A stretch of 64,000 bases of DNA from Sipunculus nudus (taxonomy: Eukaryota > Annelida > Sipuncula > Golfingiida > Sipunculidae): contig CM049320.1 in the NCBI GenBank assembly GCA_026874595.1, positions 43,596,714 through 43,660,713 on the forward strand, in the 5' to 3' direction. The stretch's first letter is position 1. Every line of letters begins with the position of its first letter. The position numbers were made by a program, and so were the translations under genes. Shown piece after piece: positions 23,396 to 64,000 of this stretch. Under the pieces are notes generated by a model. It was not told where the DNA came from and searched no databases. It saw nothing but the letters and a program-made list of their open reading frames with translations.

Positions 23396-23590
23396 TCGTC
23401 ATTTTTGACAACGCCTGATAGCCTACTGAAACGCTGCCATATAAAATAAACCATTTCAAGCATTAAAGATATTCTGTTCTGTTCTTACGTATGCAAGAGC
23501 TTCTCCTAAGCGAACATATGTTAATGTAACATTTTACCCAGATTCTTAGTTTTTTTAAGTGAAATGCTCTTTAACAGATGAATAAGCACA

Positions 23591-27920: not shown

Positions 27921-28047
27921 ATGTCAGGACAGACTTGGGGCCCTAAACATGACAGCATGAAGCTGGTACGGCGAGGCTGTTTCACTAAAACCATATTGGT
28001 TATTGTCGGCTTGGTGGTGCTGGTCATGTACCTGGTGCAACGTGAAG
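27921..28047 (+). CDS. Sulfotransferase exon 1: cytoplasmic tail and signal anchor
   Basis: It encodes 42 residues plus one base. MSGQTWGPKHDSMKLVRRG precedes a hydrophobic run from TILVIVG to VLVMYLV. The donor is GAAG|gtaatc. The basic KLVRR before the helix fits a type II (N-terminus in cytosol) orientation. Confidence 0.88.
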
Positions 28048-36655: not shown

Positions 36656-38457
36656 TTTAATTTTTAAAGCGTAAAATCCACAGTGTTGTGCTCTGCAACG
36701 CTATTACAAGCAAGCATTTGCATAATAATGACTATGAGAAAAAAAAATATTCATTAAATAAAAATTAAGACAAACATTTAGATATTACTTAGGCTATATA
36801 AAACATGCACATAATCCATTAATATACATTAACTATGATACTAAACCAATAACAAAAATTAAACCTATAAAAGTGTAGTTAAAATTACGGTATGGAATTG
36901 AAAATCTGCACATATGCAAAATCACAGCTAATCGAAATATTGCACAAATAGGTATGTCTTAAGCTTTTTTTAAAAAGCGGTTAGGAAATGAATTCCACAA
37001 AGTGGGACCTGCCACAAAAAATGCTCTTTGAACAACCATGGAGGACTTTGTATGTGGAACAAAAAATATGTTATGATCGGCCGATCTGAGGCATCTACCT
37101 GGTGTGTAAGAATGAATTATATCCTGTAGGTAGACCGGGGCCATGCGATGTTTGGTCTTGAAAAGCAGTATGGCCACCTTAAATTTAATACGCTGACTTA
37201 CAGGGAGCCAGTGCAGCTCCCGCAATACAGGTTAATATGATAATACTTGTCACATCTACCTAGTATACGGGCTGCGCTGTTCTGAACTCGCTGAAGCCTC
37301 TGAATCAATGAAGACGGAATCCCAAGAAGTAAAGGTTTCCATAATCTAACTTGGTAGTGACTAAAGCATGGATTAGGCGTTCAAGACAGCGTTGATCCAA
37401 ATACGCTTTTATTTTATAGATGTTGTGGAAATGCATGTAGGCCACACGGCATTTGGTGTTCACATGCTGCTCCATGGTGTAAACAGGATCAAAATAAACA
37501 CCAAGGCCTCGAATCCACTGAGATCGTGGAACTTTATGTTCGCCAATGAGAAGATTTGGACATTTCATCTTTGTCGCCAAGTGTTTCGGTGTAATCAGTA
37601 TCACATCTGTTTTATCATCATTGAAATACATCAGAATATTAATTTCTTCATTTAAATGACACAAAGTAAAATTATATGAATCAAAACAGCTCGGCAGGAC
37701 CTCCAGAAATTGTCACAGGGAAATGGGTAAACAACACACTGGATAACACATATGTAAATTAAGTGACAAATATATATTCAAACATATATTCATGTTGTTT
37801 TACTCTGTAGGAAAGTTAAAACCCTGCCAGTTCTACGTGTCAATGGCCGCCTACAATGTTTTCCTGTTGTTTCGTCTGCAGGACAGTTATAACCTTGCCG
37901 GTACTACATGTCAATGACCCCCATAATGTTTTCCTGTTGTTTTGTCTGTAGGACAGTTATAACACTTATAATCCTCAATTACTTTTACATTGCTTATATG
38001 TTTACCTTTAGGAGAATGTTAAAGTCCTGCTGGTGACGTACATGCGCGGCGGCTCGTCGTTTCTGGGGGAGCTGATAAACAGGAACCCGTCAGCGTGTTA
38101 CTGGTATGAACCGATGGAGGCCATGTATCACTCCATGTACGGGGTGGTCAACGTTCTCCTACCACTAGACATAATATATAACATCAATGGTTCCAAGAGG
38201 TACGTATTCTATTTAGTAACAGTAATTTTTTTAATAATATTAGCTCATTTTGTCTTAGCCCTATACTAGAACACGGAAGGCAAGTGGTCAGTCAAAACGT
38301 GCGTCTTCCTCAGTGATAATCCACGAATACAGTGTTGAAAGATGGAAGTACATTTGATGTACCTATTAGACTAAGGTATTTGGTAGATTGAGAGGCAATG
38401 ACGAATCATTTGGTTTGCTTGCCACTGTTACGTTAGAGATGCGTCTATTTATACTAA

Positions 38458-38517
<60 letters not shown>

Positions 38518-43734: not shown

Positions 43735-44489
43735 GCACTTATTGGTTTGATATGGGGAGAGTCTAGTTAATTAAAGTCTTGTACATAAGAATATTCTAAT
43801 TTAGTTGTTCCGATCAGGGAACCTAGTAAATGTTACCTTCGCTAGATGGCTCCAGATTAAACCCATTTGACTATAACAGGTCCAGAAAAGCCAATCGGTC
43901 ACTTGGGTACCTCCGTTACACAGCGTGTGCAATCCAGTGGTCATTTGACCGGCTACAACGCGCTGCACGCACACGCCCTTTTAATTGCTCTCCCTCCTAT
44001 CCCATCATGGTAATATTATAATTTTTGCTTTGCACTACTTGTGTAAATATAATTTGGTAACACATGATTCTTTTATACTCAAATATATGTGCTTCCACTT
44101 TATGAGGCCGTTGTTCATTGTACATGTATTTACCTGAATAGATTCGTTTATGAGCTCTGAAATCGGAATCAATACAGCACAGAGACTCGTCTACTGCGGC
44201 CACATGAACACCAGCAGCACCAAGAACAAGCGGGCATGATGTGCGTACAGAAACAGCTGATTTGACATATCTGTGAAAGAAAGCCAAACTTTGCTTCGGT
44301 GTTCCAATGACACACAAGCATTTTGTAACAACCGAGGAAAGCATGAGTTTTTGACACACCATCGCCGATTATCATGGTGGAGAAAAGACATCATGTGAAG
44401 ATGGTCGGACATTCATGTCATATGGGGGGGGGGGGGAATATATAGTATGTACATACCAACTTAGGTCAGTATTGTGAAAATTCTTAAAG
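43326..44489. other. No supported gene; simple repeats and an inverted repeat
   Basis: G-run at 43565-43574, an inverted repeat at 43578-43680 (separate entry), (TA)n at about 43688-43733 and a G-run at about 44425-44438. Overlapping minus-strand frames at 43997-44412 are short and carry no recognisable motif. Confidence 0.5.
43578..43680. repeat. Inverted repeat with 15-bp perfect arms
   Basis: ATAGTAGACATACAT at 43578-43592 is mirrored exactly at 43666-43680. Outside the arms are a G-run on the left and CCCCC on the right, which extend the complementarity. The loop is built of TA-rich 'atgcctatatatat' units. Confidence 0.85.
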
Positions 44490-45580
44490 TTGGGGCCCGA
44501 ACATAATCAATTAAAAAAAAACAGGAAAGATATTTGCCCACTTAACATGAGAATTGTTGTAGCTAGAACCGTTCTTTTTTTTCACAAATATAACTTTATC
44601 TAATCAAGATTCAACTGTATACCCAAAATTAGATTTGAATTTTGCCATTTGTTTAAGTTATTACGTTATTGACATGAATATAAAATTAGTACCTTATACA
44701 CATAAGGACATATTTTGTTATAATCTCAAATTTGAAAATAAAAGCTCCAAAATTAGGCTAGTTATTGAATTTTTTTGAGGTTCTTATTGTATTCACTTGC
44801 ATGGTGAAACTCAAGCCAGCCCACTTCTGGTCACTGGAAGTCAGCTGTGCAAGGGTACGTCATTTGCCATGGGTCACTGGGGAGATCCCCTGTTGTGGCA
44901 GGTGTACAGTTATTCTCATACCACCATCACACCCACTCACCAAGTGTTAAGTAATATTTTGTTATTGTTTAAACTGTATTCCCTTAATTGTTATGCTGTT
45001 TCCACTCCAATATACAACACTTTTCTTGAAATAGCAATTCAAGGAGAAATCTAGAAGATGCTATCCTTTGGTAATGTAGCATCTAAAAAAATTAATTTTC
45101 TTTCTTTTAATTAATATTAGGATATTAAAATAAATTAAACCCATTAGTATGTATAAACTGATAATATATGAGCCAAATAATGGATTTATAGTGGTGCAAT
45201 TTAGAATTGTGAATTTTGAATCAAATGTTATTTTCATATATTTATTGTTTTGCAAATTTATAATTTTTTGTGGTAAAAAATAAATACATCTGTGTGCATA
45301 ATGTGATTTTATTTGACCAAATTATTCATAAATGTTGATGCAGTTTGGAATTGTGAATTAATTTATATATTCAGTTAAATATGTTATATTGCAAATGTAT
45401 AAAATTTATAAATTTGACAAACAATGTGATCGTATGCAAACATATTGTTAATTATTTTCCTGCCTCAGCATAATAAAGTGATTGGATTTCCATGTCCATC
45501 TCGCCGTCTTTTCTAAATTAAATATTTAATTATAATGAAATTCTTTTTTCTCCTATAAGCATTGTTGAATTAAATTTCAT

Positions 45581-45629
<49 letters not shown>

Positions 45630-45720
45630 GTAACTCTCACCATTACCCCCTTCCCCCTTCCCCTTGGCACTGAGCCCTTGCACCTGTTGATTGGGTAATT
45701 AGGTTTATTGCAGCTGTTTT
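44490..45720 (+). mobile_element. Dispersed non-autonomous element, copy C
   Basis: It matches copy A from about 7680 to 8960: 'gtatacccaaaattagat', 'aacacttttcttgaaata', 'tctgtgtgcataatgtg', 'attattttcctgcctcag'. The 5' end is missing. A (TA)n run at about 45585-45626 lies near the 3' part. A spliced-looking frame at 44765-45054 is a repeat by-product. Confidence 0.72.
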
Positions 45721-45872
45721 TTATCAGCATATAAATCTGAAGGCGGTTTCACACCGAATGCGTACGAACGAATTTTACGTCCGAACGAAAATTTGGTGTA
45801 CGAACGAAAAAATAAAACACTTTATTTTATGTTGGTGCATACACACCTAATCCGAACGATGCTATCCGAACG

Positions 45873-45900
45873 AAAAAAATAGAACATGTTCTATTTTTTT
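45873..45900. repeat. 28-bp perfect palindrome centred on GAACATGTTC
   Basis: Seven A, then TAGAACATGTTCTA, then seven T, with no mismatch. Inverted 'cgaacg' and 'cgttcg' flank it, and 'gaacgaa' units recur at 45765-45875. It could fold into a strong hairpin. Confidence 0.9.
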
Positions 45901-46778
45901 GTCGTTCGCATCGGACAAGAATGGCTTCTTTTCACCTTCAACACAAAAGAGCTGGAATATTTATAACCAGACTGGTTCATTTGTACGTTATATACTGTAC
46001 AACATAGAAGTGTTGTTTCCTTGTCCACTATTTCAAAATTATGTGATAAAAATATAAAAACAGGGATTATTTTTTTTTCAATCAAATTAATTTGATTTAA
46101 ACAGATATTTATTTACAGATATTGTTTTAGCTCCAATGATTTTTCCATTTAAATCAGACTTTTTTTTATATAATATGTAAATTTCCTGGGGGATTATATT
46201 TTTATCAAAAGGGATTTTAATCGCCGCTTGGCCACTTATTTTAATTAAGAATCCGGGACAAAACAGACTTTTAAACCAGGTTTAGATGTAATTTTTCAGG
46301 ATAAATTCTAATTCTTAATATATCTTATTTGCAATATATTAAATTTATTCTCCGAAAGGGGGAGGGTTGATTACATTGATCATCCATCCTAGCCTCCCCC
46401 AATCCCCCTATATTTACGCCCCTGAATATAAGTCAGATGTGTAAGTGATATGAACCCAAATTAGTGACATTATCCATGCAGGACTTGCTGTTCATTACAC
46501 ATAAAATAATCCGCGGTAAATATAGAAAAAAAATCACGGAACAATAACTTTTTTCATTTGTAATTTGTATTATTATAATAGTAATAATTATAATAGTATT
46601 ATTTTTAGTTCAACGTTTTGCATTTAAACAGAAGTTTCATAGCTGTGCGCAGACTGTTCAAAATCATATTGGCAGATTTGAAAATGAAATATAAATCAAA
46701 CTTAACTAGTGATTCAAACTTTAGACACATTTTAAGGTTTAATGGTGGCATTAAGACGCTTATTATCATAACAATCAA
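45901..46778. other. AT-rich unique sequence, no gene seen
   Basis: No exon or mobile-element signature beyond homopolymer runs and a small AT-repeat near 46568-46605. Confidence 0.5.
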
Positions 46779-48862
46779 AGTATGAGAATCTGGTGAACAT
46801 AAGGTCCAGAATGTGCAGGGTGATTCGCTAAATCAATATGAAGTATGAGAATCTGGTGAACAAAATGTCAAGAATGTGCAGGTAGATACGCTAAATCAAG
46901 ATGAAGTGTGTGAATCTGGTGAACAAAAGGTCCAGAATGTGCAGGTAGATTCGCTAAATCAAGATGAAGTGTGTGAATCTGGTGAACAAAAGGTCCAGAA
47001 TGTGCAGGTAGATACGCTAAATCAAGATGAAGTGTGTGAATCTGGTGAACAAAAGGTCCAGAATGTGCAGGTAGATACGCTAAATCAAGATGAAGTGTGT
47101 GAATCTGGTGAACAAAAGGTCCTGAATGTGCAGGTAGATACGCTAAATCAAGATGAAGTGTGTGAATCTGGTGAACAAAAGGTCCTGAATGTGCAGGTAG
47201 ATACGCTAAATCAAGATGAAGTGTGTGAATCTGGTGAACATAAGGTCCAGAATGTGCAGGTAGATACGCTAAATCAAGATGAAGTGTGTGAATCTGGTGA
47301 ACATAAGGTCCAGAATGTGCAGGTAGATACGCTAAATCAAGATGAAGTGTGTGAATCTGGTGAACAAAAGGTCCAGAATGTGCTGGTAGATACGCTAAAT
47401 CAAGATGAAGTGTGTGAATCTGGTGAACAAAAGGTCCAGAATGTGCAGGTAGATACGCTAAATCAAGATGAAGTGTGTGAATCTGGTGAACATAAGGTCC
47501 AGAATGTGCAGGTAGATACACTAAATCAAGATGAAGTGTGTGAATCTGGTGAACAAAAGGTCCAGAATGTGCAGGTAGATACGCTAAATCAAGATGAAGT
47601 GTGTGAATCTGGTGAACATAAGGTCCAGAATGTGCAGGTAGATACGCTAAATCAAGATGAAGTGTGTGAATCTTGTGAACATAAGGTCCAGAATGTGCAG
47701 GTAGATACGCTAAATCAAGATGAAGTGTGTGAATCTGGTGAACAAAAGGTCCAGAATGTGCAGGTAGATACGCTAAATCAAGATGAAGTGTGTGAATCTG
47801 GTGAACAAAAGGTCCAGAATGTGCAGGTAGATACGCTAAATCAAGATGAAGTGTGTGAATCTGGTGAACAAAAGGTCCAGAATGTGCAGGTAGATACGCT
47901 AAATCAAGATGAAGTGTGTGAATCTGGTGAACATAAGGTCCAGAATGTGCAGGTAGATACGTTTAATCAAGATGAAGTGTGTGAATCTGGTGAACATAAG
48001 GTCCAGAATGTGCAGGTAGATACGGTAAATCAAGATGAAGTGTGTGAATCTGGTGAACATAAGGTCCAGAATGTGCAGGTAGATACGCTAAATCAAGATG
48101 AAGTGTGTGAATCTGGTGGACAAAAGGTCCAGAATGTGCAGGTAGATACGCTAAATCAAGATGAAGTGTGTGAATCTGGTGAACATAAGGTCCAGAATGT
48201 GCAGGTAGATACGCTAAATCAAGATGAAGTGTGTGAATCTTGTGAACATAAGGTCCAGAATGTGCAGGTAGATACGCTAAATCAAGATGAAGTGTGTGAA
48301 TCTGGTGAACAAAAGGTCCAGAATGTGCAGGTAGATACGCTAAATCAAGATGAAGTGTGTGAATCTGGTGAACAAAAGGTCCAGAATGTGCAGGTAGATA
48401 CGCTAAATCAAGATGAAGTGTGTGAATCTGGTGAACAAAAGGTCCAGAATGTGCAGGTAGATACGCTAAATCAAGATGAAGTGTGTGAATCTGGTGAACA
48501 TAAGGTCCAGAATGTGCAGGTAGATACGTTTAATCAAGATGAAGTGTGTGAATCTGGTGAACATAAGGTCCAGAATGTGCAGGTAGATACGGTAAATCAA
48601 GATGAAGTGTGTGAATCTGGTGAACATAAGGTCCAGAATGTGCAGGTAGATACGCTAAATCAAGATGAAGTGTGTGAATCTGGTGAACAAAAGGTCCAGA
48701 ATGTGCAGGTAGATACGCTAAATCAAGATGAAGTGTGTGAATCTGGTGAACATAAGGTCCAGAATGTGCAGGTAGATACGCTAAATCAAGATTAAGTTTG
48801 TGAAGCTAGTGAACAAAAGGTGCAGGTAGTTACGCTAAATCAAGATTATATATGTGAATCTA
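46779..48862. repeat. 63-bp minisatellite, about 33 units, open in one plus-strand frame
   Basis: The unit spans 'caagatgaagtgtgtgaatc', 'tggtgaacaaaaggtcc' and 'agaatgtgcaggtagatacg' plus 'ctaaat'. Since 63 is 21 codons, one plus frame stays open from 46849 to the TAA at 48793-48795; edge units carry stops (TGA at 46846-46848). Unit variants are mostly amino-acid changing (caa/cat, ggt/tgt, cta/ttt/gta), which does not look like purifying selection. There is no start codon with a good context, no splice support and no family match. I treat it as a minisatellite; a repetitive acidic protein is the alternative. Confidence 0.95.
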
Positions 48863-49149
48863 ATAAGAAAAAAAAGCTTTCCTGGATAATCCGTTGCTAT
48901 ATCTGTCATCCGTGAACATCTCAATTGTCACCCATATACTGTACATGAGCCGGAGTTCAAATGAAAGGTGTTATGAGGGTAAAAGTTGTTATCCTGCAGT
49001 ATACACACACCTCGGTTTAATCCAGGAAAATATGGCGGGTGGGCTAACATTTGATACGGCAAGTGGCTTTGCACAAAGCAGGTCACGTGATATCCAACAA
49101 CTCGAGAAGATACTCCGGCCCGCTCTAATTGTTTCACGTATTTAATGAA

Positions 49150-49245
49150 CACGACAAATACCGGACGGTGTCCTAGTTTTATCCACTTTGCGCCTAATAA
49201 ACGCTGCATCCCGGCTCAATGTTATAGCCACTCCCGGTAACGCAG
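49150..49245 (+). other. Candidate non-coding first exon of the membrane-protein gene
   Basis: A strong donor, CGCAG|gtaagt, ends at 49245 in locally GC-richer sequence, and CACGTG lies upstream near 49084. Exon 53299-54091 begins with only nine non-coding bases before its ATG and has a good acceptor, so an upstream UTR exon must exist somewhere; this is the best site I noticed. The left limit is arbitrary. Confidence 0.25.
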
Positions 49246-52200
49246 GTAAGTGTTCACACTTTTCACTAATTGTATTAAACCACAAGACCATGTTTCACTG
49301 ACAGTTATCATTATTAACAACATTGGTGAGATTTGTAAATTTGATTTGTAAGCAATGAAGTGGACGAGTGGATAATTCTGCTGACCAGGACATCACTATT
49401 CAGTGATGTAGGATACAGAAACAGGAATAATTAGCATTGTATATACTAATGACTAGACTAAACAGATCAGATCCAGCTCAGTGTCGCCCAATGCAGATTC
49501 ATTGTTCCTTTATCTATAATGCCGCTTGCCCCTAAGCTGATACAAAGCTATAAAAGTTGTCCTCGCATTGTTGGCAAAGTATTAAATGTTTAATACTTAA
49601 ATCCAAGTTTTTAATGTCCTTAGGTATTGTGTTTAAATTTATATATATGTTTTATCAATAAGCACGATATTCATGTTTATGCCGATTTGCAAGATATCTT
49701 GAGATGTACAATGATTTATCAATAATAAACCAGATTTATCAATGTTATTTGTATTTTTTCATTATAACAACCTAATATATGTTTGTTTGCATGAGAACAC
49801 TTAGTCCTGTGTAAACACAGATAAAACACAGCTGACGGTGACATTCCCACAGTCTCATCTGCTCATCTCCACCTTATTTGTTAAATCCTGCTCTTATTAT
49901 TGCTGAAATTTGCTTAGGAAGAAAAAAATATCTTGTATAATTCACAAATTAGCCTGAACAGCAAACATTCATATTATGGTACACATGACTGGGACGAACT
50001 GTGTGTGTTACTGTGTGTTTTAATCCAGTCTTCATACTGGGTGTGCAGTGACCCGCGGAAACAGCCAGCGCCGACCATGACAGACGTTTGTATTCGTCAG
50101 AGCCGAGCTGATATTTAAGGAGAGAGGACCACGGTTGAGTGAGACCGTCAACGGGTCATACTGTGTCTTGGTGTATGCGGTTCATGTGATTTAAGGCGGA
50201 TCCACGGCTGTTCCTTGGAAGCAAAAACACACATATATATATGGAGTATTTTGTTCAGACAATCCCATCAAAATGCTTAACATTATATGAAGCATAAAGG
50301 AATCATATAAACACTTTTCGTACATATACACACGTTTCTCAAACATCAATTTTCCCTGCTACTTTTCTGTTGTTTTGCAGGCTCATCGGTCCATGTTCTC
50401 TTATCTCTTCTCATGCTTTTCTTGGCCTTTTCATTTTTCATTTTTATTGAGGACCTAATTTTTATTTGATTCTTTCAGATTTTAACTGTTCTACATTTGA
50501 CTTAGGTCTCATACCGTCATACTTCTCCGTTTCTGTCCTCTCTTTTCGATTCCGTACTTCTTCTGCGGGTTCATTGTAAGATATTTCATAATCATGCCAC
50601 TCTTTTCCAATATTTCTTTCATATCCTCATATCTTTTCCGCAGTTTCAATGAGAAATAATTGTGCAAAATGTGAATTGTGCATTTATGGTAGATTGTTGT
50701 ATTTTGGAGAAATCGTACTTTTTTATATCCTTGTTAGTTTGTTTTCTCTTCTACGTTAATTTGAACATTGTGCGGACAAGCTGGTGTCAACTAAATATAT
50801 CTCCCAAATCAATAATCGCGTGTCCAATAACTGAAACTATGTGTTAACTGTTACCATAAAAAAATCAATCTGTTATTTATTGCTTGGCCTCCACATGAGT
50901 TCCATGGACTTTTATAGATCTTCCTATGTGCGTAAATAGTTCAATTACAACAACCATTCCTGTCCCCAACTCCATGTCGTCCAGTTACATGTCAAAACCT
51001 GTATTATTCCCACCTACTTTCCGTTTAGGTTTCCATTACTATCAACATGTCATGGCTGCATGTGACCTGTACCCATCCCTGACTGGGGCTGGCCCTCTTC
51101 TGTAGCTTCATGAGCTGGTGAATATTCTTGGATTACTGTGAGAATTACGAGGTTTTCACTCTATCAATGCATTTTCAGCATTCTTTGATATTATGCTCCA
51201 GTGCTACACCACGTTGATGGAGATTACCTCATAGATTATTTGCCAGTACATATTATGCTTTTACCTGAATTTAGTTTGACATTTCAAAACCCTATCCATC
51301 TACATTCACTAATTCCAAAGATGTCTGAAGTTTGATACCTCAAAGGTCCTTGCAAGTTGACCAGATATCCCACTTGTGTAGTGTCCTGACATTCCGGCAG
51401 CCTATGTTAATTGCTTGGGCTTGGTTATGGACGTTTTCGGCCCCTGAACGTCCTAATGCAACAAGTTGTTGGACCATGTTGGGTTGTAGGTTTTCCTCCC
51501 ATTAGTTACCCTAACACCGCATATATGTTAAAATAAAAAAAAAATAACAATACATACTTTCTCATCTCTCAATAAAATCAATTAATATTAACTAATGTAT
51601 CAATGTGCCATAAGTGTTCCTATAAATATAAAATAACATCTTCTGAATAAGTCATAATAAGCAAATGCTGCTAATTTCGAAATTACTAATGGATTTTCCA
51701 AATTTAATAATTATGTTTGAAATTATATTCATAGGGTTATTACAAATCTCTTCTTAAAATGTCACACGTGAATCAATTTCAAAGAAAATGAATCTCGTCT
51801 TCTAAAATAATGTAAGCAAGGTGATAACAGTATATACAGATTGTTTCTTCCTGTCAATTGATTTATGCCTATTTGATTCTATAACTAGTTTGTGGTCGCA
51901 GCATCTCCATTAAGCAAGAGCCTTTTTGTATATTATACATAATAGATATGTTTCTACTTTCTACTGTTAACAACAATAAAGAATCAAAGGTTCCAATGAA
52001 ATATAAAATATTACAGGAGTGAAATTTTGCCATTTTTGATTGCCATGACTTTTATCCTTTGTTTCAACTGGTAAATAAAAAAAATGTTCATGTCACCTAT
52101 GGATTGTACCAGCCACACATGTCCTAATCCCGCTTGAAAAATAAAGTCCTAATGTAAGTGAATCAGTTAATGTTTCCATTATTATCTAACTTCATTAAAA

Positions 52201-52271
52201 ACTGGTATAAGTGTTTTGATCTATATTCCTCCATATGAACAACTGTTAACCAGTATTTTATGCAACATACT

Positions 52272-52470
52272 CAGTGGCGGATCCGTGGGGGGGGGGGGGG
52301 GGGGGCGAATCAACCTTTTAATAGGGTTTCAAACTAAATTTTGCGACCCTGACCCCTCCTTCCGGATCAGAGAGGATTCCTTCAGAAGGAGGACCTTCCT
52401 TTAGGTTTTCTTTCAGTCTTCCTGGGCTTGACCCTTCCGTTTCCAAAACCCTGGATCCGCCCCGATACTG
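52272..52470. mobile_element. hAT-like MITE of about 199 bp
   Basis: The left end is 'cagtggcggatccgtgg' with a G-run; the right end 'ccctggatccgccccgatactg', read inversely, starts CAGT and contains GGCGGATCCAGGG. The 8-base flanks (aacatact and tgacaaaa) do not match, so the target duplication has decayed or an end is misplaced. Confidence 0.55.
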
Positions 52471-53298
52471 TGACAAAAAGTCTTCTACAATCACCATAAA
52501 CTGCTGGGTTCGGAGTGTTATCACCTAGAAATAAAACACACAAAATTAATGGTGAACTTTTTCTAATGAATCAGTTTTAGAATGGCCCCAATCGTACAAC
52601 ATATATATATATTAAGATTGCAGCAACCATACTCTCAAATAATTTAAAATTTAACGGTTGAATTCCCAATACTTTTCAACATTTATGATTGCTTTATTAA
52701 GATTTATGCCAGGAATGTTTGTAAACTGTTGAAACAGAATGACACATTCAATTTGTTCAAATTTGGTTTATGACAATTAAGCCTTTTGATATTTGTTTAG
52801 ACTTGATCCAAGTTTCAGTGATATGACTATTGACTAACGCTAGGTTCGTCCCTGGGCTTGGCTCCTGTCTGACTGTGCTGCCTTCGGGTCTTGGCTTGTC
52901 CCGGCCAAATGATCAAATCCTTTCTCATCAACGTTGAGGTTTCCATCAAAATTATGAAATGTAACCGGCTTTACCTTTCTGACAGCGATATCATGCTTGT
53001 CCATCGAAAAAGAACTAATAATTACTCAAAATTGTCCACGAAAGCGATGCTTATATCGGCGCGCATCATTTCAATATACGGGTACACCGTTCATGTGCAA
53101 TTCACAAGGGCCAGGTAGTCGCAAAATGGGGATTTTTTCAGAGATTCTTATCAAGTGGTGGCCATTTGAGACATATATACTCAGAGAATAAACGCAATTA
53201 TTATAAATCCTTAATATACCGCAGTATTTACCAGTATCGGTAATGTCATTTAATTTTCCTGCATGAATTGACTTGTTTAGTTCTGGCTTTGATTACAG

Positions 53299-56200
53299 GC
53301 GTGGACCATGGAGTCTGCAACACTTCCGGCTCACTTAGACAGCAAGTCGCCGACCCCCCTCCGGCCGTCCTACTCGGACACTGAACTTGAGCGTCGAGTG
53401 TCACATGATCCCGGGGCACCAAGATTTGTCCGCCGGGTCAGCTTCATTGACGACAACGACACAGTCGTGGACAACCAGGGCGCCGTGCTCCGGGCAGGGT
53501 CTGACACCAACGGTTCGACGGGAGACGAGAGAGAACAAGTACATAAAAACGGAAAGTATAAAAAACACAAAACTAGACACGATCCCGGTAACAAAAGTCA
53601 CCAGAAGAGGAAAGAGCAGTCCTCGAGGAACAATGACAGGGTCAAGCACCACAAAGCAAGGGCTCCCCCGGTACCTGTACAGGTCAGTCCAGGGGTGACC
53701 ATCAGTGGTCCGTACGTGTCTACGTCACAGCCCCAGCCAGCTACACAGCCAGATGACGTCAACAGTGATGAACAGCCCTTCACGGTAAATATTGTCATAC
53801 CATCTGAAGAAAAAAATGATCCACCGCCATTGGGAAGACACTATGTCCCTGAAAGTCACACAAACGGACCTGCCGGGGTCGATGTGGGCAGCGAAGCAGG
53901 TCCTGTTAAAGATGTCCCCGTCAACCCCGTCACGACGTCCAGCTCCTCATCATCATCCACGGCATCTCCTGCAGATACACCTGAAGGGTCGCCCATAAAC
54001 ACCACCAGGGGCGCCACTGTCATCCGCATCAGCACGCCCGAGAGCAGTCCAGACCCGTCTGTCGGAAAGAGAAGCCCCATCCTTGCAAAAAGTAAGAAAC
54101 ACCGTTTCACCGACAGTTTATTTGGTGATCCCCCTTTGACAACTACAGTACAAGTATTTCCGAACATTCACGAGAAAAATTGTTGAGGTGGACCGGTGTT
54201 GTGTAAATTCATTTAAAGCTTTACTCGTTTATATATATCAAAATGTAAGATTATAGCTTTAATAGTAGAGTTTTCCCAGTTTTGTTAATGACCCTGACTG
54301 TTGCTTCCTTTTACCTTCAGGCAACATTGTGTCCGTTGATATAAATCCAGAAGATGAGGATGACGTCAAGCCTCTCCAGGTTCAGGTTCATTCTGATTCT
54401 GAGGACAGTGTGCGACCTTACGTGGCGGTCGTCAGTCTACCTCCGCTGGAAACAGATGTCGCTCCACAAGTGGAACCTCCACATACAGAGGAACAGGTTG
54501 CTCTAGAATCTCCTAAGACGGTCATAAGTGAACCGACAGAGACGCCTTGTGGCCTATCCGTCCCAGTTGAAGGTGTTACATTGTTATCATCAGAGACTGA
54601 TATTCCCGAGGCCATCAGACCGGAACCAGTAAGAACTGTCGACATCACAGTACCTGTCACTGGAGTCACTACGGAAGCATCCGATAGTGACGTGATTTAT
54701 GCAAATGAGCCGAAGTCTATTCGGCACTCACGTGAGGACTCGGTTGATGTTGACCCTCCTACATACTCTAACCTGCCAGGTGACCTGGTGAACACGGAAG
54801 ATGAAGGTAACATTACGTACGCCAACTTACCAGTGACATCATCCCCTAAACCCGACGATCAGCCAGTGTATACAAATATACCTACACCGGTGGTGCCATC
54901 TCGTGATACGAAACCGAGACACAGCGCTGCCTCCTCAATGTCCGACTCACAGTCCACGCTCACCAGGCACCCGCCCACCCTGGTGGTCGAGTCCACACCT
55001 GGGCCGTCTACGTCAAAGGAAGATCCCGCGGTGTCAAGCGTAGACTCGCGCCCTTCCTCAGACACCATGTCGGCCACATTACCCATCCGACAACCGAATA
55101 ATGGCACGAGGAAGGCCATTCCTGTATCAAGCGCTCCAGTTGAGATTGAATGCGAAATAGAGTGAGTATAACTATATTTAGATCATTATTTCCTTGATTA
55201 CCCGTTAAAACGTTTATTAATAAATATTCGAAAAGGAAAACTGAATACTTGATCGTTAAACTTATGTCATCAATTGGTTGAAAATTACAGAAAGCTGATT
55301 TATGATATTAAGTAGTCGGTCACTGCCCCTTGATTTTCTGATCCATCAAAGCCATCAGATGCGAGTGTTTGTGTACAAGGCATTATGGCGGAGACTGAGT
55401 TTGGTTTGTCTGCGGTGAGTCACACACCTCGTCAGTGATTACCTTCGTGGTCTAACCATCACGCTCTAAGTTTATAATGTACGGCATGCTCCGTGTACGG
55501 CATGCTCCGTGTACGGCATGCTCCGTGTACGGCATGCTCCGTGTACGGCATGCTCCGTGTAGAGTTTATAATGTACGGCATGCTCCGTGTACGGCATGCT
55601 CCGTGTAGAGTTTATAATGTACGGCATGCTCCGTGTAGAGTTTATAATGTACGGCATGCTCCGTGTACGGCATGCTCCGTGTAGAGTTTATAATGTACGG
55701 CATGCTCCGTGTAGAGTTTATAATGTACGGCATGCTCCGTGTACGGCATGCTCCGTGTAGAGTTTATAATGTACGGCATGCTCCGTGTAGAGTTTATAAT
55801 GTACGGCATGCTCCGTGTACGGCATGCTCCGTGTAGAGTTTATAATGTACGGCATGCTCCGTGTAGAGTTTATAATGTACGGCATGCTCCGTGTAGAGTT
55901 TATAATGTACGGCATGCTCCGTGTAGAGTTTATAATGTACGGCATGCTCCGTGTACGGCATGCTCCGTGTAGAGTTTATAATGTACGGCATGCTCCGTGT
56001 AGAGTTTATAATGTACGGCATGCTCCGTGTACGGCATGCTCCGTGTAGAGTTTATAATGTACGGCATGCTCCGTGTAGAGTTTATAATGTACGGCATGCT
56101 CCGTGTAGAGTTTATAATGTACGGCATGCTCCGTGTAGAGTTTATAATGTACGGCATGCTCCGTGTAGAGTTTATAATGTACGGCATGCTCCGTGTAGAG

Positions 56201-59043
56201 TTTATAATGTACGGCATGCTCCGTGTACGGCATGCTCCGTGTAGAGTTTATAATGTACGGCATGCTCCGTGTAGAGTTTATAATGTACGGCATGCTCCGT
56301 GTAGAGTTTATAATGTACGGCATGCTCCGTGTAGAGTTTATAATGTACGGCATGCTCCGTGTAGAGTTTATAATGTACGGCATGCTCCGTGTAGAGTTTA
56401 TAATGTACGGCATGCTCCGTGTAGAGTTTATAATGTACGGCATGCTCCGTGTAGAGTTTATAATGTACGGCATGCTCCGTGTAGAGTTTATAATGTACGG
56501 CATGCTCCGTGTAGAGTTTATAATGTACGGCATGCTCCGTGTAGAGTTTATAATGTACGGCATGCTCCGTGTAGAGTTTATAATGTACGGCATGCTCCGT
56601 GTAGAGTTTATAATGTACGGCATGCTCCGTGTAGAGTTTATAATGTACGGCATGCTCCGTGTAGAGTTTATAATGTACGGCATGCTCCGTGTAGAGTTTA
56701 TAATGTACGGCATGCTCCGTGTAGAGTTTATAATGTACGGCATGCTCCGTGTAGAGTTTATAATGTACGGCATGCTCCGTGTAGAGTTTATAATGTACGG
56801 CATGCTCCGTGTAGAGTTTATAATGTACGGCATGCTCCGTGTAGAGTTTATAATGTACGGCATGCTCCGTGTAGAGTTTATAATGTACGGCATGCTCCGT
56901 GTAGAGTTTATAATGTACGGCATGCTCCGTGTAGAGTTTATAATGTACGGCATGCTCCGTGTAGAGTTTATAATGTACGGCATGCTCCGTGTAGAGTTTA
57001 TAATGTACGGCATGCTCCGTGTAGAGTTTATAATGTACGGCATGCTCCGTGTAGAGTTTATAATGTACGGCATGCTCCGTGTAGAGTTTATAATGTACGG
57101 CATGCTCCGTGTAGAGTTTATAATGTACGGCATGCTCCGTGTAGAGTTTATAATGTACGGCATGCTCCGTGTAGAGTTTATAATGTACGGCATGCTCCGT
57201 GTAGAGTTTATAATGTACGGCATGCTCCGTGTAGAGTTTATAATGTACGGCATGCTCCGTGTAGAGTTTATAATGTACGGCATGCTCCGTGTAGAGTTTA
57301 TAATGTACGGCATGCTCCGTGTAGAGTTTATAATGTACGGCATGCTCCGTGTAGAGTTTATAATGTACGGCATGCTCCGTGTAGAGTTTATAATGTACGG
57401 CATGCTCCGTGTAGAGTTTATAATGTACGGCATGCTCCGTGTAGAGGACAGGAACAATACCTTCACTAATGTTGATTCAATTGTGCACCAGAAAACCGGT
57501 CTTTACAAACAATCCAGCAAACAACTGCAATGGACTCATAAATTTCGGCCTACATGCTTTGAAACTTTTAAGTGTGTAGCACGTAAATGTGTATCATGCA
57601 TGACCAAGCAAGGGGAATTAGAAATCCTATAGGGCTATAAATGCTTTGACAATGAGTTATATCATATTTGCCATAAGCGGTCTGTACTGCTGTGGGTAAT
57701 GTTGGGGCGGTAGGTTAGTGTGTAGGAATGAACGCTTGAGCTGGTCTTGATGCACACATGCGCCATCATCCGTAAAACTACTTACGGTATCATGAAGAGA
57801 TGCACGACCGGCTAGTTATATACGAGAGTAAGGTGTCAGGAACATTTCGTTAGCATGTATAAGCATCGTTTCAGTTTCATTAATGTTCCTACAGACGCCT
57901 TAGTTTGCACATATTGTGAAAGCTGAGAATCTGTTCTACATTTTTTATCTGGGAACGCTCCGTTTTCAAAAACTTCTTGATTTGACCTTGAATTTAAGTT
58001 TTTTTTATGGCTTTCGTATATTTGATTATAAAGTCAGTTATTCAGCATGCCTGTATAAGATCAAGTAAACCTCTGGGCGTATTGTGTAAATAAGGATTTT
58101 TTTATTGTGTGTAAACTTTCAAAATTATAATTTTCCGGGGTTTTTACTTTTCAAATATAAATATATACCTATCAAAGGCTTCCCGAAAATAAAAGTAGGC
58201 TCTTGAGAGTATATGGTAACAACTTCATATTGTGCCAATTGAATTTTTCAACCATAAGTGCCTGATTAAGAGTGATTAAAAATTTTAATATATATACACC
58301 AATCAAATTGTTTTCAAGTCTCTAAACTTGTTTTAAAGTCTTTATGTAGTTTTTGAAATCTCAAAATTTACATATGCTACATTATAGAGAACATTTATTA
58401 TCTATCAGAATATAAATGTATGTCAAGTGGTACAAATGCAACAGTTTAGATGTTAAGAAGAAATTAAAACAGTGTTTCCTGAGACTCAAGACAGTAAAAC
58501 CAATCTTTACACAATTAGTTTCAAATTTCAAGAGACACACATTGAAAAAAAAGATGTCTCAATACCATTCCCATAAACATGGAGGGACATTAGGCCTACA
58601 CAATATCCATTCACACGTGACCTGTGGGATGTAACTCACGACGCTCCACAGCTAACCTCCTTTGCGTTACAAAAAAGTTGTAATATTCTAAAACATCGAT
58701 AAAAGACCTATATTGGTTGTATATCGTTGGACTTCATGCTGTTGGACTTTATTTAACATATATATGAAACCACCTAAGTCTTACTTCACTCCTTGCGCAA
58801 ACGTATATTTACAATTTATCCTCTACATGTAAAGTCTCCCACCTAGACTGATAGAAGATTCCCTGCCGCTCGTTAATTTAGATTTATTTTTAAGGGAACG
58901 CCTTTTTTTAATACTTTTGAAAAACTCAGATATTGGTTCCACAATTATTTTTAGCAAGACTGGAACACGTACAAAGATATTTAAAATTACTCTTAAAATC
59001 ATGCAATTATACTGCTGTCTTTTATCTACACGAACGATCTTTG

Positions 59044-59110
<67 letters not shown>

Positions 59111-62100
59111 TATATACATGAATCATGGTTATAGAATGAATTCCGACGCGCCCCCTGTCGCAAAGAAGAAGAAAGAAGGGTAGGTGAATCCTACGGAATG
59201 TTTCTGGTATGACTCCTGTGTGTGAAAGCCGCATGTTTACACGTGTGTACAGAGCGAGTGTAACAAAGGCAGCCTGTTTACACGTGTATGTACAGAGCGG
59301 TTGTAGGCTAACAAAGGCCGGCTGTTTACATGTATGTGTACAGGGTGGGTGTAACAAAGGCCGACTATTTTTCATGTGTGTACAGAGCGGGTGTAACTAA
59401 GGCCGCCTGTATTTGGTGTGTGTAAAGGACGAGTGTAACAAAGGGCCGCCTGTTTTATACGTGTGTGTACAGAGCGGGTGTAACAAAGGCCGCCTGTTTA
59501 TACGCGTGTGTACAGAGCGGATGAAACAAAGGCCGCCTGTTTATACGCGTGTGTCCAGAGCTGGTGTACCAAAGGCCGCCTGTTTATACGTGTGTGTACA
59601 GAGCGGGTGTAACAAAGGCTGCCTGTTTATACCTGTGTACATAGCGGGTGTAACAAAGGCCGCCTGTTTATACGTGTGTGTACAGAGCGGGTGTAACAAA
59701 GGCCGCCTGTTTATACGCGTGTGTACAGAGCGGGTGTAACAAAGGCCGCCTGTTTATACGTGTGTGTAAAGAACGGGTGTAACAAAGGCCGCCTGTTTAT
59801 ACGCGTGTGTACAGAGCGGGTGTAACAAAGGCCGCCTGTTTATACGTGTGTGTACAGAGCGGGTGTACCAAAGGCCGCCTGTTTATACGTATGTGTACAG
59901 AGCGGATGAAACAAAGACCGCCTGTTTATACGTGTGTGTACAGAGCAGGTGTAACAAAGGCCGCCTGTTTATACGTATGTGTACAGAGCGGATGAATCAA
60001 AGACCGCCTGTTTATACGTATGTGTACAGAGCGGATGAAACAAAGGCCGCCTGTTTATACGTGTGTGTACAGAGCGGGTGTATCAAAGACCGCCTGTTTA
60101 TACGTGTGAGTACAGAGCGAGTGTATCAAAGGCCGCCTGTTTATACGCGTGTGTACTGAGCGGGTGTACCAAAGGCCGCCTGTTTATACGCGTGTGTACA
60201 GAGCGGGTGTACCAAAGACCGCTTGTATTTGGTGTGTGTAAAGGACGAGTGTAAAAAAGGTCCGCATTTATATATATATGTTAGAAAGCAAGAAGTGATA
60301 AGAAATCCTAGCTTGTCGCAAAGTTATCTTACGATACGAAAAATTCTACAATTTTCTTCTCATGGGGTCGCAATTCCACCGGCATATTACAAAATTTTTA
60401 TCCGATGAATTTTGCATTTTTTTAAATAACATTCGTATGATGTACAGAAAATTAATGCGAATCATATTTGATATGCGCCGTTACGATAGGAAATTAAAAA
60501 GTCGTATCGTTTTGAATCTTACCTTTAATTCATGAGAAATATATGTACTTGTACCTTTAGACTTTACCGTATAACAGCGAATGAGGGTACATTTGTAAAC
60601 ATATATACTGAGTACAGACGAGTTACAACATGGACTTGTTATTGTGATTCCAGGGGATGTTCGAGCAGACGGTCTCTCTGTGAGCTCTGCCTGATGTACC
60701 TGGTGGCGGCCATCTTGCTTGTCATCATTACCTGTGCTATTATATTGGGGTTTAAACTTAGTCATCGTCACTCACCGGCAGCCGTTAACTATTGTAAGTC
60801 ACGTTTCCTAATATCGTCAAAACATCTGATAATTTGTTTTCTACTCGGAATTTTTTATTGCCACCTTGTCAAAAATATGTAACTGACAATTTAGTTCATT
60901 ATTCAGAAAAAAATAACAGGGGATAAACAGAATCACGTGTATACCCTGAGAACCAACACATTTCTTCAGTCGCTGATTGACTGGCAAATGGAGCCATGGC
61001 TTGACTGATACTTTGATTATGATCTGCAGTAATAGTATTTTGAGCTCGAGCAAGTCTTATCTAGATAAGCTTGACCCTGTTTATTGACCATTAATTCGTG
61101 CAAGTCAGAGTGGTCAGGTGATCTGATTAGTGGCTGGAACCATAAGCTGTGACTCCGAGTTTGATACTTACAGACTTCACATTCACATCAGAATCACCTT
61201 TTATACATGAAAATGGTTATAAGACCAATAGAAGAGGAAGGGAACAAAAATATGCTATATCATGCTATATAGAACTGGCAAATGCTTTTACATTTCAGTT
61301 GGCCAACTGGGACAAAATAATTCTTCCCAAACAATTGATTTCGCCATCTCCAGAGCGATATTCCTCACAAATTATCAGGCATAAAGCTATCAATTTTTTA
61401 CACAATAGTTTTAAATTTATGTAGAAGAAAAGATGGTAGATATGCAATAAAAATGCTTAGAGACATTTGTGTATATTTAAAGATGATGTCCTTGTTAAAT
61501 ACACATTTACTTCCACATTTAATTTAATTTTTTAAATCTTCTGACCAACAACAAACTATATTTTTATATATAATATCTATAAGGGATATTCTGAGGTTAA
61601 TATGTATGTACAGGGCAATTGGACATTCAATATATATATATATATAAAAGATGTATTGAACCAAGGTACTTTGACGATATTAAGCCCTAAATGCTTCGTG
61701 TGCAGGTAAATAGACCTTCAGTATATAGTGCTTATTACAGAATGGTTACAAACACATTAGCATTGATCAGTGCAGAATTTAAAGAAAAAAATATTTATTG
61801 GTGGAGTTGACTGCCTCCGTTTTTAATGCTAACGTAACTAAGTATATGTACATCTGCAGAATTTGTACCATATAGTTAGAAGACGATAAGGAACAATAAT
61901 TTAATCTCAGCTTCATCAGAATTTTTTTCCATGGCATAATACAATGACATCATCTACGTACATTACAATACCATCAGTATTTAGCTCAACAGGAAGATCA
62001 TTTACGTATAATAAAAACAGAATAGGTCCAAACATGGTACCCTAAGGGACACGTACACTCACAACAGCAGGGCTAGAAAGGTTGTTATTGTATTTTACTA

Positions 62101-63990
62101 TTTGTAACCAGTTATGAAGATATGATTGAAATAGGCCACTGTGTTACTAGCTTAACCAAATGTATGCATTTTTCTAGTAATCTTTCATGATTTATAGGAT
62201 CAAATTCTTTGGTTTGGTAGAAAAAAACCGGCCATAACTTTCCCCATATCTATATTTTTATATATATCATTTAAAAATTTACCAATAGCAGTTACTTTTG
62301 ATCCTCCCGGCACGTAAACAAAATATAGCGTTTTACGTATATAAATATATACATGCCCTTCTATGGCCTTGGTAATGTTATTCCCCTGGTAAAATGCAAC
62401 GGTCAGTTGTATTCGGATAACCGAATTCAGGAAATCAATTATACATTAAAATGTCTGCATTGGTACTATTTCTGGTAATTTCAAATCAATCCTCAAATCA
62501 TATTTTAATTTGGAGTTCTAAAATCAGGAATAATCATTTTGCGAGAATCTCACGAGACTATCTAAGTCTAATTGAGATAAACTTTTACCAGGACATGGTG
62601 CCTTTTTTCTGAAATGTACAGCGGAAAAGTAAGTGATATACATTGTGTGTGGGTGTGTGTGTATATATACATGTATATACACAATATATATCATTTACTA
62701 GCAGAAAAGAGCTTAATGCCCTCGACCCCGAATTTGATGTTGCGCCCCCTCTATCTTCAAATCTTGTTTACGCGACTGCTTTTTATTGAGCTCAAATTTG
62801 TGGTAAAAAAAGATCTTTGATGTCAATTTTCTGGGCATGAAAATATGTAAGATTTGCTTGAGATGTGAAAGTGATCTGATCTATAGCGAACACTCTTTGT
62901 CCGTTGTCCGTCCATCTGGCCGTCCGTTAACAGTGCACAAATCCTGACTGCTAGACCTAGAAACTTCCAACTGAAATTAAATGGAAATTCATAAAAAACC
63001 TCTGTTATTGCACCCGAGAATAATTATAATTTTGAAACAAAAGCTCCTGTATTCGAATAACTAATGCTTTGATTGGCATGAATCTTTTTATGCATATTCA
63101 TTATGGAGTGGTTCGTCAGTTCCTGAAGACTGGTGGCGCAACCTGTATTTTCTCCAATTTTACGCATTATATTCTATATATTGTGAGACCTTCAAATCAA
63201 GCCATCCGGCCTTTAACAAGGCAGTTGAAATAAGGTCACTGTTTGCTATATTCTGAAAGATATATGAATGAACATTATTTGAGCACCCTATAAGACAGCT
63301 GTTAGACAGCTGGGCTCAAAACTTCTTATTTGATAAAGATCCAGGGAGGTTCCTGTAAAAAATACAGGGAGGTTCCTGTAAAAAATACAGGGAGGTTCCT
63401 GTAAAAACCAGAAATAATGTTAATGTCACTGTCTGCGAACTGTATGAAAGAATACGATTTTAACAATCTATTAGTCGGACGGGCACAGGTTGTAGCAGTT
63501 GGACGTAGAAACATCTAACTTAGCATCTATGGAGTTCTTGTTAAAACTCCTTAGAAATCATTCTACCCATTGTTCAAGGTTCCTTATCAAACATTTTCCA
63601 TCAGATCATAACATGCAATAGTAAATGCATACGTCCCTGGTAATGCAAATTCAGCTGAGCGTCATTGCCCAAGGGCAACTTGTAAGTTCTAAATGCGAGA
63701 TGTTGTAACCTTTTTTTTCAAAATTTTGGAGATAACAATTTGACAGACTGGAAAACATGACGGACTACGGTCAGAGAAGGCTAGTACTTGATCCGAACCC
63801 TATTTGTACTGCCACCCTAACGTCTCAAGAATTTAATATCGACTTTCGGGTGACAGGATGTCGCTAGTTCATGACAAACTCTGGAATGTTAATTTATGTT
63901 GCTGTTTCAGACTATTCTTACAATACAACTAAGGAAGAAGGCTCAGGAAGCGGGCAGACCTCACGGCAGTGGCTAAATATGGGTAAATGA
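53299..63990 (+). CDS. Single-pass membrane protein with multiple Tyr-X-Asn motifs (3' end uncertain)
   Basis: Coding exons are 53308-54091, 54321-55161, 60654-60793 and 63911-63990 (or beyond). All joins are GT-AG and in phase (1, 2, 1). I do not recognise the family. The N-terminal 550 residues are Ser/Thr/Pro/Asp/Glu-rich and disordered: two RRVS sites (29-32, 42-45), a Lys/Arg/His block (about 80-118), an APPVPV stretch, then four Tyr motifs: VIYANEP (Y388), PTYSNLP (Y410), ITYANLP (Y428) and PVYTNIP (Y445). A hydrophobic helix (about 553-575) is preceded by RR and Cys 544, 551 and 554, and followed by an NTT glycosylation site (593). Without a signal peptide, a type II orientation with a long cytosolic tail fits. 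Known SH2 rules make pYxN a Grb2-type site, and ITYANL fits the ITIM pattern; a signalling scaffold role is inferred. Reading through gives TGA at 63988-63990 and 614 residues, but G|gtaaat at 63983 may splice onward. Confidence 0.82.
53308..54091 (+). CDS. Membrane-protein exon 1 (coding): basic disordered tail
   Basis: The exon begins at 53299 after 'tggctttgattacag'; ATG at 53308 is in the good context ACCATGG. The donor is AAAA|gtaaga at 54092. It encodes 261 codons plus one base. Reading into the intron gives a stop at 54184-54186, so a retained intron would give a 292-residue soluble form. Confidence 0.85.
54092..54320 (+). other. Membrane-protein intron, 229 bp
   Basis: gtaaga to cttcag, AT-rich with a pyrimidine tract at the 3' end. 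In frame from exon 1 for 31 codons, then TGA. Confidence 0.85.
54321..55161 (+). CDS. Membrane-protein exon 2 (coding): acidic region and Tyr motifs
   Basis: The acceptor is 'ttccttttaccttcag'; its first two bases complete a Ser codon with exon 1. Then it reads NIVSVDINPEDEDDVKPLQ onward with no stop for 280 codons. The four Tyr motifs fall at 54692-54880 with 22-, 18- and 17-residue spacing. The donor is AATAGA|gtgagt at 55162; reading past it hits TGA at once. Confidence 0.85.
55470..57446. repeat. 30-bp minisatellite with shortened 16-bp units, about 67 units
   Basis: The full unit is 'tagagtttataatg' plus 'tacggcatgctccgtg'; the short unit keeps only the latter 16 bases. Short units occur up to about 56240; from there to 57446 about 40 full units follow with no visible change. 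ACGGCATGCTCCGT is a near-palindrome around GCATGC. Since 30 is a multiple of three, open frames of 469-486 codons arise in several frames on both strands; none is a gene. Confidence 0.98.
59217..60275. repeat. 43-bp minisatellite, about 25 units
   Basis: The unit is 'gtgtgtacagagcgggtg' plus 'taacaaaggccgcctg' plus 'tttatacgc', with variants gatgaaac, gtgtacc and agaccgcc. The array edges carry 'ttggtgtgtgtaaaggac' variants at about 59412 and 60229. Confidence 0.95.
60654..60793 (+). CDS. Membrane-protein exon 3 (coding): transmembrane helix
   Basis: The acceptor is 'cttgttattgtgattccag'. The first base completes Glu 542, then GCSSRRSLCELC leads into a hydrophobic helix from LMYLVAAILLVIITCAIILG to FKLSHRH. 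The donor is TATT|gtaagt. The phase match on both sides and a complete membrane helix make the exon convincing despite the 5.5-kb intron before it. Confidence 0.83.
61910..62230 (-). pseudogene. Jockey/CR1-like LINE relic: reverse transcriptase core
   Basis: On the minus strand one frame reads FGPILFLLYVNDLP (about 61990-62031) followed by MYVDDVIVLCHGK (about 61929-61967), the palm motifs with the YxDD catalytic pair. A TAG replaces a codon in the usual PQG block just upstream (about 62040), and an FDPINHERLLEKC block (about 62160-62205) sits in another frame. It is a short dead fragment, antisense to the host gene. Confidence 0.8.
62865..63690 (+). mobile_element. Dispersed non-autonomous element, copy E (short form)
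   Basis: The left end 'gtgatctgatctatag' with 'gtccgttgtccgtccatc' and the right end 'attcagctgagcgtcattg' with the palindrome TTGCCCAAGGGCAA and 'cttgt' correspond to both ends of copy A. The interior is different and about half as long. Confidence 0.6.
63341..63410. repeat. 24-bp direct repeat, three units
   Basis: 'cagggaggttcctgtaaaaa' with short linkers, three times. CAGG and CCTG arms let each unit form a small hairpin. It lies inside dispersed-element copy E. Confidence 0.9.
63911..63990 (+). CDS. Membrane-protein exon 4 (coding): juxtamembrane, possibly incomplete
   Basis: The acceptor is 'tgttgctgtttcag'. It reads YYSYNTTKEEGSGSGQTS then RQWLNMGK and TGA at 63988-63990. NTT is an N-glycosylation sequon. 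A donor-like G|gtaaat at 63983 would skip this stop and continue into an exon outside the window; a 38-residue ectodomain seems short, which favours continuation. Confidence 0.65.
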
Positions 63991-64000
63991 CGCAAAGTCT

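Follow-up and report, generated by a model that had tools for sequence, protein, structure and literature searches.

Four clustered Y-x-N-x-P motifs in the tail of a predicted membrane protein of Sipunculus nudus, candidate docking sites for Grb2-type adaptors

What kind of protein carries four evenly spaced Tyr-x-Asn motifs in a long tail that precedes a membrane helix? The question is raised by a locus in a 64,000-nucleotide stretch of the Sipunculus nudus genome (contig CM049320.1; the whole stretch is referred to here as the window), in which a first-pass annotation had described an unrecognized membrane protein with four such motifs. Translation of positions 54692-54880 gives VIYANEPKSIRHSREDSVDVDPPTYSNLPGDLVNTEDEGNITYANLPVTSSPKPDDQPVYTNI, with the Tyr codons of the four motifs at 54698, 54764, 54818, and 54869 (Table 1). 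The description of the motifs as standing 17 to 22 residues apart, each with a Pro at one residue's remove, agrees with the translation: the Tyr-to-Tyr spacings are 22, 18, and 17 residues, and YANEP, YSNLP, YANLP, and YTNIP all (4/4) carry Asn at +2 and Pro at +4, the Pro codon of the fourth motif (54881-54883) lying just beyond the end of the translated interval. These four tyrosines are the last four of the nine that precede the helix.

Table 1. Positions of the predicted exons and of the motifs within their translation
Feature	Position	Strand	Basis
Predicted first coding exon (261 codons), start codon within ACCATGG	53308-54091	+	donor AAA/GTAAGA
RRVS, residues 29-32, PKA-type site	53392-53403	+	pattern scan
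RRVSF, residues 42-46, PKA-type site and RVxF PP1 docking fit	53431-53445	+	pattern scan
Second coding exon with the four motifs, ending AGA/GTGAGT	54321-55161	+	splice-site ranks, frame
YANEP (Tyr388)	54698-54712	+	translation, spliced frame
PPTYSNLP (Tyr410), YxNxP overlapping PPxY (WW-ligand type)	54755-54778	+	translation, pattern scan
ITYANLP (Tyr428), YxNxP and ITIM pattern match	54812-54832	+	translation, pattern scan
YTNIP (Tyr445)	54869-54883	+	translation, spliced frame
PVVPSR, residues 451-456, class II SH3-ligand fit, right after fourth YxN	54887-54904	+	pattern only
Predicted third exon, GCSSRRSLCELC then hydrophobic helix	60654-60793	+	scan for helix exons
CELC, residues 551-554, CxxC at tail-side membrane edge, candidate palmitoylation site	60679-60690	+	pattern only
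Membrane helix CLMYLVAAILLVIITCAIILGF, residues 554-575, peak 19-residue hydropathy 3.04	60688-60753	+	hydropathy
Predicted fourth exon, NTT sequon, SGSG after acidic residues	63911-63982	+	frame, donor TGG/GTAAAT

The cluster of four motifs is real and non-random. When the 551-residue tail was shuffled 200,000 times, four or more YxN arose in 50 shuffles (46 with four and 4 with five), and four YxNxP never arose, the maximum being three (reached in 3 shuffles); in shuffles of the local 81 residues, four YxN were seen in 4 of 200,000 and YxNxP never exceeded two; all of these figures overstate the significance because the YxN and YxNxP patterns were picked after being seen. In our judgment, this post hoc choice does not reduce the cluster to chance. 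Six-frame, stop-to-stop segments of at least 40 amino acids across the window contain 95 YxN among 2730 Tyr, and the motif tail is the sole site among them with four YxN inside 80 residues. Codons vary among the motifs (Tyr, TAT or TAC; Asn, AAT or AAC; Pro, CCG, CCA, or CCT), with the second and third units using identical codons for the three residues (TAC, AAC, and CCA). Since the codons differ and no DNA repeat was found to link the units, it is the residues, more than the DNA, that the units have in common; an origin of the four units by recent tandem duplication is unsupported.

Tandem arrays are present elsewhere in the window; together with apparent introns and a sulfotransferase gene, they suggest animal, probably lophotrochozoan, DNA. 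A 63-bp unit occurs in 32.5 copies with 97% matches at 46778-48825 (+), and this array is open over 648 codons (46849-48795, +), encoding a 21-residue repeat like ESGEQKVQNVQVDTLNQDEVC. A 48-bp unit occurs in 43 copies with 88% matches at 21336-23397, where several frames are open on the minus strand. An array of a 30-bp unit occupies 55494-57446, inside the predicted intron 2, and includes 40.8 copies with 100% matches at 56224-57446. An open stretch at 37305-37712 (-) has no Pfam match at E 1 and resembles part of a retrotransposon reverse transcriptase.

The four exons of Table 1 join in a single frame of 612 residues; the join proposed in the first-pass annotation is thus in frame by translation of the model. 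Ranked with approximate splice-site weights, the donor of exon 1 falls in the top 0.5% of GT sites in the window, that of exon 2 in the top 1.5%, and that of exon 3 in the top 1.1%; the acceptors of exons 2, 3, and 4 fall in the top 0.03%, 2.3%, and 1.6% of AG sites, respectively. The acceptor ahead of the exon-1 start codon is weak (top 12%), as is the donor of exon 4 (top 5% of GT sites), 18 bases after which the window ends. Exon 4 would either continue past the window through this donor at 63982 or, if unspliced there, end at the TGA at 63988-63990. At 298 codons, one open stretch is longer than the regional composition would lead one to expect: Markov sequences modeled on the region have a longest open stretch of 132 codons on average, and 5 of 2000 reach 261. 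GC content is highest in the two 2-kb bins of 52001-56000 (0.437 and 0.473) among the 32 bins of the window, the second of which also contains the start of the 30-bp array. GC content differs little among the three codon positions, so codon use adds little.

Whether the tail belongs to a membrane protein depends on the predicted splice from 55161 to 60654. The first-pass annotation had placed a Cys-flanked membrane helix downstream, and an open exon encoding one does stand at 60654-60793, in the phase that exon 2 requires, but its membership in the same transcript is a prediction. We scanned both strands of the window for exons of about 60 to 300 nt that have an acceptor, a donor, and between them an open frame encoding a strongly hydrophobic segment. 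With splice cut-offs of 3.6 and 3.1, set just under this exon's own 3.67 and 3.18, and a hydropathy cut-off of 2.5 (3.04 in this exon), it was the sole candidate. Lowering all three cut-offs to 2.0 gave four candidates, namely this exon twice (with different starts), an exon at 27928-28047, and one on the minus strand. The second of these loci, on the plus strand, is an open exon with the Golgi-anchor-like MKLVRRGCFTKTILVIVGLVVLVMYLVQRE, 10 kb upstream of the catalytic part of a sulfotransferase (38463-39608, +; Sulfotransfer_3, E 3.5e-11), and may be the anchor exon of that gene; if it is, it serves as a fair internal control for the scan.

The side of the membrane on which the tail lies was judged from both ends. 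No hydrophobic signal peptide was found at the start of exon 1, and no signal-peptide exon candidate was found in 44000-53290 (one directly upstream exon of phase 0 and at most 300 nt, at the cut-offs of the strict scan), so the tail should be cytosolic, as had been proposed. The charge around the helix does not favor a cytosolic tail and leans the opposite way: flanks of 15 residues have a net charge of -1 toward the tail and +2 beyond the helix (+1 and +2 for 10 residues; -3 and +2 for 20), with equal counts of K/R (2 and 2). Past the helix stand the NTT sequon and, following acidic residues, SGSG. We regard a type II topology with a cytosolic N terminus as the more likely. The tail was also said to be acidic and disordered. 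It is acidic, with 81 D/E versus 52 K/R in 555 residues, and the prediction of disorder holds for the whole tail, narrowly (charge-hydropathy value of 0.418 versus a boundary of 0.432 that is itself an approximation), and for the block that contains the majority of the motifs, but several 60-residue blocks (181-360 and 481-540) are at or over the boundary. AlphaFold, run on exon 2 alone as a single sequence, returned a mean pLDDT of 40.8 with 264 of 279 residues below 50, which from a single sequence is weak evidence of disorder.

The remaining short motifs of the tail were located with patterns that are likewise approximations. The two RRVS sites reported upstream are present at residues 29-32 and 42-45, and the second reads on as RRVSF, which matches the RVxF trait of PP1-interacting proteins and is a putative dock. 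RVSF is described as the canonical PP1-docking motif (PMC3795061), and in KNL1 phosphorylation of RVSF by Aurora B is reported to inhibit PP1 binding (PMC6715587); the second RRVS site may similarly be a kinase-gated phosphatase dock. The upstream proline stretch is RAPPVPV, at which the scan found no class I SH3 pattern; such a pattern occurs at residue 201 (KDVPVNP). The proposed fit to the ITIM consensus holds for ITYANL but for none of the other three motifs (1/4). YxxM was not found in the 612 residues, nor was the one simple 14-3-3 pattern used (R..[ST].P, which is not a full test of such sites), and a KASH-type pattern is absent from the end of the 612 residues, although the true end of the protein may differ. 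The RVSF within the second RRVS site, the CxxC as such, PPTY, and the in-frame stop overlapping the exon-2 donor had gone unmentioned in the first-pass annotation.

The 612 residues have no Pfam match at E 1 and no PDB sequence match at E 5. In IMG/VR, 121 pattern stretches were found for exon 2 and 4 for exon 1, none of them confirmed, which says little given that the collection is viral. Neither Rfam families at the gathering score nor tRNAs were found. In the portions of the literature searched, no invertebrate multi-YxN membrane protein was recognized as the same. The unrecognized status of the protein may only reflect a gene cut off by the window edge: since the gene reaches that edge, named domains of a type II protein might lie past base 64000.

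The four motifs probably serve in signaling, to judge from their pattern. Asn at +2 is described as the dominant determinant of Grb2 SH2 binding (PMC12521615), in keeping with the first-pass reading of pYxN as a Grb2-type docking motif; affinities predicted by a fitted model with and without this residue differ by 2 to 3 orders of magnitude, and earlier measurements cited in the same source put the loss without it at at least 100-fold. A flatworm Grb2 has been reported, with YXNX named as the recognition motif of its SH2 domain (PMC3894193). Our preferred reading, to which we give somewhat less than an even chance, is a single-pass type II membrane protein whose N-terminal tail, with its four YxNxP, recruits Grb2-type SH2 adaptors in the manner of LAT or CD72. 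About 550 largely disordered cytosolic residues would precede the single membrane helix. A tyrosine kinase would phosphorylate the four Y-x-N-x-P sites, each of which would become a dock for a Grb2/Drk-type SH2 adaptor, and several adaptor-Sos complexes per molecule would be brought to the membrane and feed Ras/MAPK signaling. Palmitoylation would occur at the CxxC next to the membrane. PP1 would bind the N-terminal RVSF as long as no PKA-type kinase had phosphorylated it, which would add a second, serine-based switch. The ectodomain would be short if the TGA at 63988 ends the protein and longer if the donor at 63982 is used.

We propose that the protein would work like LAT or CD72 and do not claim membership in either family. 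In LAT, three distal YXNX bind Grb2 once phosphorylated, and Grb2-SOS1-Grb2 can bridge two LAT molecules (PMC3291652); LAT, LIME, NTAL, and PAG have a CxxC palmitoylation motif adjoining the helix (PMC2803307). As described in these sources, the LAT-type adaptors (LAT, NTAL/LAB, LAX, LIME, and PAG) share with the predicted protein a single helix and a long tail with several tyrosine docking sites. The four YxNxP correspond by pattern match to the YXNX sites for Grb2 in LAT, and CELC corresponds by pattern to the CxxC by the helix of LAT, LIME, NTAL, and PAG, provided that exon 3 is spliced in. Proteins of the LAT type have a short ectodomain, the N terminus outside, and a C-terminal cytoplasmic tail. 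Here, in contrast, the YxN tail is N-terminal to the helix, which would reverse the topology and speaks against the LAT-type arrangement, with the orientation itself being a prediction. The protein also differs from the LAT type in having Pro at +4 in 4/4 sites together with RVSF and PPxY, and it has no sequence match to a Pfam family at E 1.

The topology proposed here is that of CD72, a type II protein with an N-terminal cytoplasmic tail that is much shorter than the present one. CD72 is a membrane protein of the C-type-lectin family whose ITIM is reported to bind SHP-1 and whose ITIM-like site is reported to bind Grb2 (PMC7168817, PMC3980566). The combination described there, an ITIM with a Grb2-type site, has its likeness in ITYANL, which fits both patterns, and in the three further YxN, on a tail whose side of the membrane is predicted; the number of sites differs (four versus two in CD72), and the Pfam search found no lectin domain in the 612 residues within the window. 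Among invertebrates, amphioxus BbLcLRR is a membrane receptor in which three ITIM or ITIM-like tyrosines are reported to be the principal targets of Lck in Jurkat cells (PMC8211107). As described, it is an LRR receptor and carries ITIM rather than YxN.

The nearest competitor is compatible with the docking mechanism, and the likelihoods that we assign to the two overlap. It is possible, though rather unlikely, that the four exons are the N-terminal part of a type II protein already known (a teneurin or a C-type-lectin-like receptor, for example), with recognizable ectodomain exons past base 64000 and with the tail described here as its fast-evolving intracellular domain. Teneurins are described as type II proteins with an N-terminal intracellular domain and a single helix, encoded by a single gene in lophotrochozoa; the terms "highly variable" and "poorly conserved" are applied there to the intracellular and transmembrane domains (PMC6428715). 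On that description their intracellular domains are too variable for comparison, so a Pfam miss would be expected even for a teneurin tail. The EGF-like repeats and the 2000-residue C-terminal part that follow the helix of a teneurin would here lie past base 64000. In favor of this reading, exon 4 ends in a possible donor close to the window edge, and the NTT sequon and SGSG past the helix suit an ectodomain. On the other side, that donor is weak and a TGA follows directly, the 612 residues lack any Pfam match at E 1, and within the window, which stops at base 64000, neither an EGF nor a later teneurin domain nor any match was found. To our knowledge, multi-YxN tails are not a feature of teneurins, which further counts against a teneurin. 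If exon 2 is instead the last exon, the protein would end after CEIE at a TGA and be a soluble, disordered scaffold docking Grb2 in the cytosol, the helix exon belonging to another gene or to none. This TGA (55163-55165) is in frame, shares bases with the exon-2 donor, and terminates the unspliced reading; an AATAAA follows at 55219, 54 nt past it, where the 74 AATAAA on the plus strand of the window lead to an expectation of about 0.06. The rank of the donor that would have to be ignored and a downstream helix exon in the right phase, the only one at the strict cut-offs, make this an unlikely solution, though one to be taken seriously.

The two remaining explanations give the tyrosines another role. 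AP-2 mu2 reads YxxPhi sorting signals, and Nedd4-type ligases are partners of PPxY. The YxxPhi pattern is matched by three of the four motifs (YSNL, YANL, and YTNI) and by YVAV (residue 295), and the PPxY pattern by PPTY; the motifs could then be mainly endocytic signals read independently of phosphorylation, with the PPxY perhaps recruiting a ligase. YANE misfits YxxPhi and yet shares the +2 Asn and +4 Pro of the other three, neither of which YxxPhi needs, and we regard this explanation as less likely again. Most doubtful of all is a mucin-like type I protein in which the stretch rich in Ser, Thr, and Pro (34% of 555 residues) is extracellular, a signal-peptide exon lies upstream, and YxN is unrelated to phosphorylation. 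The six N-x-S/T sequons in the tail and a flank charge that leans toward a cytosolic short side would agree with it, but the start codon stands in ACCATGG context behind a weak acceptor, the upstream scan yielded no signal-peptide exon candidate at its cut-offs, RRVSF and a long run of basic residues have a cytosolic look, and Asn at +2 and Pro at +4 would be left unexplained.

Returning to the membrane-bound docking protein, its most specific form would be a 614-residue invertebrate transmembrane adaptor of reversed topology that ends at the TGA at 63988 and has a short ectodomain, with four YxNxP clustering Grb2-Sos and RVSF bringing PP1, a counterpart of LAT evolved independently outside vertebrates; as a whole, we consider this improbable. 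The best-known multivalent YxN scaffolds at membranes are those of vertebrate lymphocytes. If the gene proves to encode a known type II receptor, it would represent a new signaling tail on a known body. If it is a separate invertebrate scaffold with its tail at the opposite end, the clustering of adaptors at membranes by repeated pYxN would appear to have arisen more than once, and such a separate example would test which spacing and which flanking residues matter.
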